DNA of 64,000 nt from an uncultured Clostridia bacterium (GTDB lineage Bacteria; Bacillota; Clostridia; Lachnospirales; CAG-274), in contig CALWOZ010000003.1 in NCBI GenBank assembly GCA_944383305.1, forward strand, positions 1 to 64,000. Direction: 5' to 3'. Below, one piece after another: positions 29,627 to 64,000 of the stretch (its first letter is position 1; every line of letters starts with the position of its first letter). Both the position numbers and the translations under genes were made by a program. The notes below the pieces were generated by a model that saw nothing but the letters and a program-made list of their open reading frames with translations, did no database searches and was not told the origin of the DNA.

Positions 29627-29868
29627 AAAAAAAGTCCCCTCCTTTTCGCACTTTTAGTTTTTAGTACGACAAGCGGTGACTGCACACATCAATACAATAG
29701 ACATATTATGCCCATAATAAGTATATTACTTTATATAAAGAAAATACTTACAAATATTCGATATACACAGTGACTTGTCGCCCGGTTTCTTGAACTGGAC
29801 ATCGCTCCATAGAAAAACTTACCGACAGGGGTAACAACCTTCTATTTCATCGCTCTTAATGTCACAAC
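29627..29868 (-). ncRNA. 5' leader of the S10 superoperon
   Basis: About 240 nt separate the predicted transcription start from rpsJ with no reading frame. By eye the RNA can form a long-range CGACAAG/CTTGTCG stem (29780-29774 with 29673-29667) enclosing a nested TAAGTAT/ATACTTA plus CTTTATATAAAG hairpin (about 29719-29751), and CCAGTT/AACCGG (about 29780-29796). Such leaders are usual sites for ribosomal-protein feedback or NusB-type control. No named family is assigned. Confidence 0.5.
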
Positions 29869-59342: not shown

Positions 59343-59382
59343 ATTTTATCTCAAACCATAGCTTAATTGAAATTAATAATAA

Positions 59383-59410
59383 AAAAAGGTTAGAATAATC
59401 TAACCTTTTT
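59383..59410. terminator. bidirectional terminator at the end of the riboswitch RNA
   Basis: Arms 59383-59394 and 59399-59410 form a 12-base-pair stem AAAAAGGTTAGA/TCTAACCTTTTT around ATAA, with T-runs on either strand. On the minus strand it ends the c-di-GMP-controlled RNA; on the plus strand it follows repeat copy B. Confidence 0.88.
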
Positions 59411-59566
59411 TGTTTTCCGCTCATATTACCCTTAAATATATTAACAAGTGTAATTATATATTATTATCCCCCAACAATAATATATAATATATTAATACTT
59501 CCCCAAATAAGTATTAACAAATAAAACACTTTTTATCCCCAAAAAGTAGTTTTAAATCTTTTTTAC
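59411..59566 (-). ncRNA. putative c-di-GMP-gated small RNA with three G-rich-loop hairpins
   Basis: Reading on the minus strand after the riboswitch terminator, three perfect hairpins follow one another. Hairpin 1 is 59547-59528 (7 bp, loop GGGGAT). Hairpin 2 is 59517-59492 (9 bp, loop ATTTGGGG). Hairpin 3 is 59488-59453 (13 bp, loop GTTGGGGGAT). All stems are A/T only, while all loops present four or five G followed by A, so the G runs are held unpaired. No credible reading frame exists. GGA in a hairpin loop is the recognition element of CsrA/RsmA, so a sponge RNA is one possible role. The existence of the RNA is inferred. Confidence 0.6.
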
Positions 59567-59603
59567 GAAAAAAAGAGCTCTGTTTTGGCTACCATACAGA
59601 ACT
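59567..59603 (-). terminator. intrinsic terminator downstream of the c-di-GMP riboswitch
   Basis: AGTTCTGT (59603-59596) pairs with ACAGAGCT (59583-59576), with an inner TGG-TAG-CCA, followed on the minus strand by C and seven T. It lies about 70 nt after the aptamer and before the G-loop hairpins. It is the natural expression platform by which ligand binding could set read-through. Confidence 0.85.
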
Positions 59604-59671
59604 TGTTAATAAATATGAAATATTAATACTATATCATTGTCATAATCTTAATATTATATATTATAAATAAG

Positions 59672-59756
59672 TTTGGTAACCCAGCCATCATATGTAAAAC
59701 ATTTAGACCTGTGGCTTTGCGTCCTTATTTTTCAATAAGTTTGCCTTTTTTCAATT
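59672..59756 (-). ncRNA. cyclic-di-GMP-I riboswitch (GEMM-I)
   Basis: The minus strand carries the conserved GEMM-I blocks in order: GGCAAAC (59745-59739), a stem TTATT-GAAA-AATAA with the GAAA tetraloop, GGACGCAAAGCC (59724-59713), AGGTCTAAA (59710-59702), a variable arm, and ATGGCTGGGTTACC (59688-59675). These match the c-di-GMP aptamer of Vibrio Vc2 type, including the tetraloop and its receptor side. It senses the second messenger that controls motility, adhesion and toxin genes in clostridia. No protein gene lies downstream on this strand for 900 bases. Confidence 0.93.
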
Positions 59757-59773
59757 TATTTTAAAAACTACAA

Positions 59774-59811
59774 AATAATAGTGTAGCTGATATCTTAACT
59801 ACACTATTATT
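59774..59811 (-). terminator. terminator of the metNIQ operon
   Basis: A perfect 13-base-pair stem (59774-59786 with 59799-59811) around a 12-base loop, followed on the minus strand by TTTTG and then TTTTT. It lies 100 bases beyond the metQ stop and directly upstream of the riboswitch, so the riboswitch RNA should have its own promoter or depend on leak-through. Confidence 0.8.
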
Positions 59812-59913
59812 CTATCACACTAACATATATTAGTCAATATACGTTTTAACAATTTTTTACTAATATTATTACAAAAATTATACATTTTAAACAAATATTT
59901 CTATAAATTTATA

Positions 59914-62770: not shown

Positions 62771-64000
62771 TTATTCAAACAATGCTTTAGAAAACTCTTT
62801 AGCATCAAATGGTCTTAAATCTTCTATACCCTCACCTACACCAATAAATCTAACTGGTATTTTTAACTCATTTTTTATAGCTATAACAACTCCACCTTTA
62901 GCTGTACCATCTAATTTTGTAAGTACAATTCCTGTAATGTCTGATACTTCACTAAATAGTTTTGCTTGTTGCAGTGCATTTTGACCTGTTGTAGCATCTA
63001 AAACAAGTAAGGTTTCTATTTGAGCATCTGGATTTTCTCTGTTTACAATTCTAGCTATTTTTTTAAGTTCTTCCATAAGATTTTTTTTATTATGCAACCT
63101 ACCTGCTGTGTCACATATTAAAAGGTCTGCTCCTCTGGCTTTGCCTGCTTGTATAGCATCAAAGACAACTGCCGCTGGGTCTGAACCTTCTTGATGCTTT
63201 ATAACGTCTATATCGCTTCTTTCTCCCCATACTTGTAATTGGTCAATAGCCGCTGCTCTAAAAGTATCCCCTGCTGCTAATATTACTTTTTTACCCTCTT
63301 TTTTATAATTATTAGCAAGCTTTCCTATGGTAGTTGTTTTTCCTACTCCGTTTACTCCTATAACAAGTATTACAGTAGGAGATTTTAAACTAAATTCTTG
63401 TGTATCTTCTTCTAATATATTTGATATAACTCTAATTATTACATTTTTAATTTCTGATACTTCTTTTATTCTTTCTTCTTTTACAATTTCTCTAACTTTG
63501 TTCATTATATAAATAGAAGTTTCTACACCTATATCTGACATAATAAGAGATTCTTCTAATTCTTCAAAAAGTTCTTCGTCTATTTTAGTAAAACTACTTA
63601 AAACTTGCTCTACACCATTTAATATGCTAGCTCTAGTTTTAGATAGTCCCATTTTTATTTTAGCAAAAAAACCTTTCTTTTTAGGCTCTTCCTCTGGCTC
63701 TTGTTTATTTACTTCTTCTACTTCTTGAATTTCTTCTCTTTCATCTTTTATTTCTTGTACTTCTTTTTCACTTTCTATTTCTTGTGTCTTTTCTTCACTT
63801 TCTTCTACTTCTTGTATTTCTTCTTGTCTTTCATCTTCTATTTCTTGTACTTCTTTTTCACTTTCTATTTCTTGTGTCTTTTCTTCACTTTCTTCTACTT
63901 CTTGTATTTCTTCTCTTTCATCTTCTACTTCTTGTATTTCTTCTCTTTCATCTTCTACTTCTTGTATTTCTTCTTGTCTTTCATCTTCTATTTCTTGTGT
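62771..64000 (-). CDS. ftsY: signal recognition particle receptor FtsY, N terminus cut by window edge
   Basis: The visible 409 residues comprise an acidic repetitive A domain (about 115 residues up to the edge), a KKKGFFAKIKMGLSKTRASI linker and the NG GTPase domain. G motifs: GVNGVGKTTTIGKLA (G1), DTFRAAAIDQL (G2), DTAGRLHNK (G3), LTKLDGTAKGG (G4) and FIGVGEGIEDLRPF (G5). It receives ribosome-SRP complexes at SecYEG. A start at the internal ATG 63652 is possible but unlikely, because the same frame stays open and acidic to the window end, as in other FtsY proteins. Confidence 0.95.
   Translation of the reverse strand, partial: TQEIEDERQEEIQEVEDEREEIQEVEDEREEIQEVEESEEKTQEIESEKEVQEIEDERQEEIQEVEESEEKTQEIESEKEVQEIKDEREEIQEVEEVNKQEPEEEPKKKGFFAKIKMGLSKTRASILNGVEQVLSSFTKIDEELFEELEESLIMSDIGVETSIYIMNKVREIVKEERIKEVSEIKNVIIRVISNILEEDTQEFSLKSPTVILVIGVNGVGKTTTIGKLANNYKKEGKKVILAAGDTFRAAAIDQLQVWGERSDIDVIKHQEGSDPAAVVFDAIQAGKARGADLLICDTAGRLHNKKNLMEELKKIARIVNRENPDAQIETLLVLDATTGQNALQQAKLFSEVSDITGIVLTKLDGTAKGGVVIAIKNELKIPVRFIGVGEGIEDLRPFDAKEFSKALFE
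63712..64000 (-). repeat. tandem coding repeats in the FtsY acidic domain
   Basis: A 73-base segment at 63751-63823 recurs identically at 63841-63913 (90-base period). A 30-base unit occurs twice in tandem at 63901-63930 and 63931-63960. The protein repeats are of the type EEIQEVEDER and EKTQEIESEKEVQEI. All periods are multiples of three, so repeat number can change without loss of frame. Confidence 0.9.

Follow-up and report, generated by a model that had tools for sequence, protein, structure and literature searches.

A predicted stand-alone RNA with UUGGGG hairpin loops behind a c-di-GMP-I riboswitch in a clostridial genus

Introduction

Trans-acting RNAs under riboswitch control are rare, the model being EutX/Rli55. 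The locus described here raises the question of what purpose is served by three consecutive minus-strand hairpins, each presenting a run of Gs in its loop, within an A/T-rich intergenic region. An initial annotation, made from the letters of this DNA, took the repetition of one motif on successive stem-loops as the mark of a functional RNA, either a protein sponge such as CsrB/RsmY or an RNA that pairs with C-rich targets. Here, the hairpins were examined in the context of their transcript, of its homologues in the genus and of related riboswitch loci in the family.

Results

The three perfect hairpins, with stems of 7, 9 and 13 bp, are present on the minus strand (Table 1). The stems had been described as composed of A-T pairs only; the 7- and 9-bp stems hold one G-C pair each, so that the 13-bp stem alone is pure A-T. 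All three minus-strand runs of four or more Gs do lie in loops as annotated, although in hairpin 2 the A that follows GGGG is paired and falls outside the loop. That the arrangement exceeds chance was confirmed. Among the 54 runs of at least four Gs found on both strands of the window (the whole 64-kb stretch of DNA analysed), only these three occupy loops closed by perfect stems of 7 or more bp. When the 1.4-kb intergenic region (18% GC) was shuffled 5000 times with its dinucleotides preserved, three such loops never arose and two arose once. Folding of the hairpin segment on the minus strand, one of the checks suggested by the annotation, gave z = -7.07 relative to its own shuffles.

Table 1. 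Features of the RNA locus, with positions numbered from the first letter of the window
Feature	Position	Strand	Details
Promoter TTGACT-17 nt-TAGAAT, TG ahead of -10	59809..59837	(-)	top minus-strand promoter match in the region, 10/12
Predicted 5' hairpin at predicted transcript start	59778..59807	(-)	folds in 7/7 species, stem sequences differ
c-di-GMP-I riboswitch aptamer, RF01051	59672..59755	(-)	cmscan 83.3 bits, gathering threshold 35
Antiterminator 5' strand GGUUACCAAACU, 3' edge of aptamer	59670..59681	(-)	pairs with 59587-59597 at -14.4 kcal/mol; equivalent in 7/7
Riboswitch terminator hairpin and U tract, containing antiterminator 3' strand UAUGGUAGCC (59587-59596)	59568..59604	(-)	-10.5 kcal/mol
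Hairpin 1	59528..59547	(-)	ACTTTTT[GGGGAT]AAAAAGT; loop GGGGAU; perfect 7-bp stem
Hairpin 2	59492..59517	(-)	TTAATACTT[ATTTGGGG]AAGTATTAA; loop AUUUGGGG; perfect 9-bp stem
Hairpin 3	59453..59488	(-)	ATTATATATTATT[GTTGGGGGAT]AATAATATATAAT; loop GUUGGGGGAU; perfect 13-bp stem
Conserved tail AAGGGUA...CGGA, last hairpin to final terminator	59416..59433	(-)	sequence AAGGGUAAUAUGAGCGGA
Final intrinsic terminator	59382..59411	(-)	13-bp stem and U tract

A context that the annotation lacked emerged from an Rfam scan of the window, which returned two matches, a c-di-GMP-I riboswitch and an S10-Clostridia ribosomal protein leader; at a relaxed threshold, nothing but sub-threshold matches appeared beside the riboswitch. 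No other RF01051 match occurs in the genome. The riboswitch adjoins the hairpins on their upstream side and on the same strand, and is predicted to govern the hairpin RNA. Transcription is predicted to start at ~59802 from a promoter that occupies the same place, as TTGACT-17-TAnnAT, in all seven species with the RNA, and a terminator-like hairpin closes the RNA in every species carrying it. The predicted transcripts are a full form of ~420 nt (~59802 to 59382) and a terminated form of ~235 nt. No conserved ORF was found in the RNA when the seven homologues were compared. A tiny ORF starting from the conserved AAGGG...NTG was also considered; the frames (MSGKQK.., MGGK* and MYG*) are unrelated between species, and it is thus not coding.

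The RNA unit was found in six of the seven other congeners, i.e. in 7/8 species of the genus when the window species is included. The exception is G002, which has no RNA yet possesses flagellins, csrA and GGDEF genes. The RNA always lies behind metNIQ, with metQ directly upstream in 7/7 (only the metQ end is visible in G007), while the downstream neighbour is htrA in four species and otherwise aroE, a glycosidase on the opposite strand or hrcA. The constancy of metQ upstream, combined with differing genes downstream, indicates that the unit stands alone. Additional BLAST-like matches on other contigs proved on inspection to be AT-rich or coding chance matches, and no second copy was retained. 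Judged from these comparisons of sequence, the locus is a conserved, riboswitch-fronted, stand-alone non-coding RNA with UUGGGG loops.

Behind the aptamer, a terminator is predicted in 7/7 species, with energies of -8.8 to -13.0 kcal/mol; its formation precludes that of an antiterminator, and vice versa. The 3' edge of the aptamer (GGUUACC and a few further bases) is complementary to GGUAGCC/GGUAAUC in the terminator hairpin, likewise in 7/7, and in the extension of this pairing both partners change sequence together in several species. By sequence as well as by energy, the aptamer is thus coupled to an expression platform with a conserved antiterminator and terminator in all seven species. 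Ligand binding would retain GGUUACC within the aptamer, so that c-di-GMP should favour termination, and the conservation of the antiterminator in 7/7 provides good support for a switch that c-di-GMP would turn off. An OFF role is also the one that class I c-di-GMP switches have in C. difficile (PMC3649979, PMC11477304). Eight GGDEF matches were found in the genome.

The annotation had named as refuting evidence homologous loci that lack the G runs or show no covariation in the stems. Global alignment of the seven RNAs was reliable only in the switch and the tail, and RNAalifold on this alignment recovered the last terminator only; the stems were therefore assessed loop by loop, by comparing the best stem enclosing each G run with shuffles of its flanks and combining the results by Fisher's method. 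G runs are kept in 6/6 homologues, at one to three per RNA, which gives 13 runs of four or more Gs in the seven RNAs (three each in the window species and G001, two each in G005 and G006, one each in G003, G004 and G007). The combined statistic for the 13 loops is chi2 84 on 26 df, and in most cases the stems are rebuilt from differing sequence. The expectation held to this extent; two of the 13 loops, that of G004 and one of G006, have weak stems that are not convincing on their own. In G006, moreover, the stem of hairpin 1 is kept and its G run is replaced by AGAU.

Every one of the 13 runs is preceded by UU, and an A follows GGGG in 10/13. Since the UU and the G run are invariant while the stems change sequence, the fixed element appears to be the exposed UUGGGG, with stem sequences free to vary. 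The tail is similarly constant (AAGGGUA in 6/7, AAGGGU in 7/7, then CGG in 7/7). An intramolecular G-quadruplex was considered and rejected, as three species have only one G4 loop. These patterns also bear on whether the hairpins have any function in trans, or merely stabilise the decaying leader of a riboswitch that has lost its gene. The variable number of hairpins, the unconserved downstream gene and the absence of the locus from one congener would suit such decay, but UUGGGG and the tail AAGGGU/CGG persist while the remainder diverges to unalignability, and the promoter and switch are intact in 7/7, which makes a decaying leader highly improbable.

The comparison with CsrB/RsmY could be addressed through CsrA itself. 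A single csrA was found in the genome, where it neighbours fliW within a group of flagellar genes, and csrA is present in 8/8 congeners. CsrA sites carry A(N)GGA, as in RUACARGGAUGU (PMC7652899), whereas no repeated A(N)GGA was found in the loops, where UUGGGG is invariant and no A precedes GGA. In most congeners the leader of the major flagellin gene hag (L085-L091) has a hairpin, UUAAUAAUCAAGGAAGAUUAUUAA, and a Shine-Dalgarno sequence, CAAGGAGG, with the CsrA motif CAAGGA; hairpin and Shine-Dalgarno sequence together form a B. subtilis-like pair of CsrA sites. It would be conceivable that the GGGGA loops titrate CsrA in the manner of CsrB/RsmY, low c-di-GMP then freeing flagellin translation. 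GGA does occur in 10/13 loops, hairpin 1 is a GGA hexaloop, csrA is shared by the genus and sits beside fliW in the organism's own genome, and the regulatory sense fits, as low c-di-GMP would set both the RNA and flagellin on. However, GGA is missing from loops of G003, G005 and G006, the A is paired in hairpin 2 and others, and UUGGGGA does not supply the A of A(N)GGA that the hag leaders of the same genus use as CAAGGA, a motif not seen in the RNA. The invariant UU and the fourth G correspond to no CsrA requirement, and the extra Gs would be left unexplained. With GGA unconserved and the flagellin leaders carrying a normal CAAGGA, a sponge of CsrB type is unlikely and the RNA does not appear, on present evidence, to be a member of the CsrB family; titration of CsrA is retained as a decidedly unlikely reading because its regulatory sense fits.

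A different RNA-binding protein could recognise the UUGGGG loops, the RNA being its sponge or scaffold. A motif repeated from loop to loop, on stems whose sequence can vary, is what protein sites typically show, and a riboswitch-terminated RNA, EutX/Rli55, is known to sequester a protein (PMC5821096). Conversely, no bacterial protein with UUGGGG specificity was identified in this analysis, and three species are down to one site, so we regard a protein partner of this kind as unlikely.

Pairing with other RNAs is suggested by the motif itself, since UUGGGG is the complement of CCCCAA. Its invariance in 13/13 loops and G runs of at least four, exceeding what CsrA needs, argue for this mode of action, as do the several G-rich regions predicted to be exposed, which in the window are three G4-5 loops together with a GGG tail; the congeners have between one and three such loops. 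Of the functions that the annotation proposed for the repeated stem-loops, the pairing with C-rich targets thus fits better than the protein sponge. C-rich partners in the genus were sought by two patterns, three C runs within 15-45 nt and CCCCAA with a second C run. Neither revealed a C-rich array partner in the genus, the hits listed beyond this locus and its homologues looking coding or ribosomal as judged by eye. Only one CCCCAA hit recurred, CCCCAA...CTGTAAACCCC, and its translation is a conserved peptide, GFTVELIG. Likewise, among mRNA leaders of the genus with CCCCAA before the Shine-Dalgarno sequence none recurs between species, and several of those from G005 resemble copies of 23S rRNA.

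The leader search is of direct relevance to the possibility that the RNA acts as an antisense regulator on mRNAs, its G loops pairing with C-rich leader stretches (e.g. anti-Shine-Dalgarno) and altering translation. The pairing logic is the same as for the sponging of C-rich RNAs, and single candidate mRNAs do exist in individual species; the failure of these leaders to recur across species and the scarcity of C4 runs in such AT-rich genomes make direct action on mRNAs quite improbable.

Related riboswitches in the family were found to precede hairpins of the opposite composition. Among the same-family RF01051 loci that were read, those of sister genus g4 (G010, G018 and G025) and of G008 and G071 have no gene directly behind the aptamer; its place is taken by hairpins whose loops are C-rich, e.g. 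UAUCCUCCCCCCUAUUGGAUA and GCAUCCCCAACG. The loci with the C-loop UAUCCUCCCCCUAUUGGAUA are L023 (G018), L025 (G025), L026 (G010), L037 (G071) and L048 (G008). A scan of 48 family genomes for this C-loop hairpin yielded 12 matches and none in the window's own genus. Of the 12, nine directly follow the riboswitches named above and one is in G031; the other two are on a different contig of G025, probably as a continuation of the array that the contig end interrupts. In the genomes bearing it, the motif is thus almost confined to the riboswitch loci. The arrays of g4, g2 and g7 share with the present RNA a related aptamer subtype, a terminator and tandem hairpins with a homopolymer loop run, but their loops are C-rich (CCUCCCCC) and able to pair with Shine-Dalgarno sequences. 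The aptamers of C-loop and G-loop RNAs group together, apart from those preceding genes, with a local support of 0.90 over only 85 positions. No csrA is present in G010, G018 and G025 (g4) or in G071 (g7). Of a further 80 riboswitches sampled in the order, the majority lie ahead of an ORF. Behind none of them was an array seen with two or more G- or C-run loops, 7/80 not being oriented because the aptamer core was unrecognised. We tentatively propose, at somewhat less than an even chance, that in one clostridial family a lineage of c-di-GMP-I riboswitches controls RNAs with arrays of homopolymer-loop hairpins rather than genes, with G4 loops here and C4-6 loops in three sister genera.

Discussion

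The best explanation overall, to which we give about an even chance, is a G-rich RNA, gated by c-di-GMP, that captures C-rich RNAs by base-pairing, most likely as a sponge. The G-loop hairpins would then form the effector portion of an independent non-coding transcript, a reading that taken as a whole stands at the same even level. At high c-di-GMP the bound aptamer would keep GGUUACC, allowing the terminator to form and halting the RNA at ~235 nt, and at low c-di-GMP the full ~420-nt RNA would be produced. Its exposed UUGGGG loops could then base-pair with CCCCAA-like stretches in other RNAs, a step for which the loop evidence offers moderate support. In the likeliest role, C-rich small RNAs would be sponged and low c-di-GMP would relieve their repression. 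The negative outcome of the pattern searches for a C-rich partner in the genus, the variation in the number of G loops from one to three, the weak stems in G004 and in one G006 loop, and the G002 genome, with its flagellins, csrA and GGDEF genes but no RNA, count against the proposal.

The closest functional analogue is RosA of B. subtilis, in which three G-rich regions bind the C-rich sRNAs RoxS and FsrA, and to which RsaI of S. aureus is described as similar (PMC8216469). Both are stand-alone Firmicute RNAs with several exposed G-rich regions, a likeness of features; neither is riboswitch-gated, and RsaI is CcpA-regulated. For the gating, the best analogue is EutX/Rli55, a sponge RNA cut short by a B12 riboswitch (PMC5821096). 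There too, a riboswitch OFF terminator is followed by trans-acting hairpins and a second terminator with no ORF, but the aptamer binds adenosylcobalamin rather than c-di-GMP; the G-rich loops here are of another kind and imply no ANTAR partner.

The aptamer itself is a full member of the c-di-GMP-I (GEMM-I) family RF01051, with the terminator/antiterminator OFF layout of C. difficile, and differs in that a hairpin-array RNA, and no protein gene, is controlled. In C. difficile, c-di-GMP-I riboswitches do precede protein-less RNAs, namely RCd11/RCd12 and an orphan switch between CD2517 and CD2517.1 (PMC11477304). However, RCd11/RCd12 serve type I toxin-antitoxin systems as antisense antitoxins, and a G-loop array is not described for these RNAs. 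CsrB/RsmY/RsmZ likewise repeat one short G-containing motif on stem-loops and are set apart by ANGGA in place of UUGGGG, by the riboswitch gating seen here and by the presence in this organism of FliW, the CsrA antagonist. A literature search for c-di-GMP coupled to a sponge-type RNA found no case. On present evidence, the RNA would combine two known kinds, the riboswitch-gated sponge RNA and the G-rich sponge RNA.

If the proposal holds, the motile/sessile signal would reach other RNAs directly at the RNA level, c-di-GMP acting directly on a small-RNA pairing network or, in the case of the G loops, on CsrA alongside FliW. Were CsrA the target, the RNA would show whether CsrA is ever under the joint action of sRNAs and FliW, a point on which PMC7652899 gives no answer. 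In addition, related riboswitches followed in one genus by G-loop arrays and in others by C-loop arrays would offer a testable system for the change of targets by such RNAs.

The survey also yielded observations on other loci. Two flagellin genes stand side by side in G002 and in G007, and one of each pair has a G run upstream, of 12 Gs in G002 (L093, G002:C1 near 361531) and of 10 Gs in G007 (L092, G007:C7 near 12365); the run in G002 directly precedes a sigma-28-like -10 element; this looks like a phase-variable flagellin promoter. Elsewhere in the window, the S10-Clostridia ribosomal protein leader (29775-29858, minus strand, 63.3 bits) is ordinary, and an FtsY-like GTPase-domain protein is encoded at 63650-64000 on the minus strand, its long N-terminal acidic repeat (EEIQEVEDER units) exiting at the window end.
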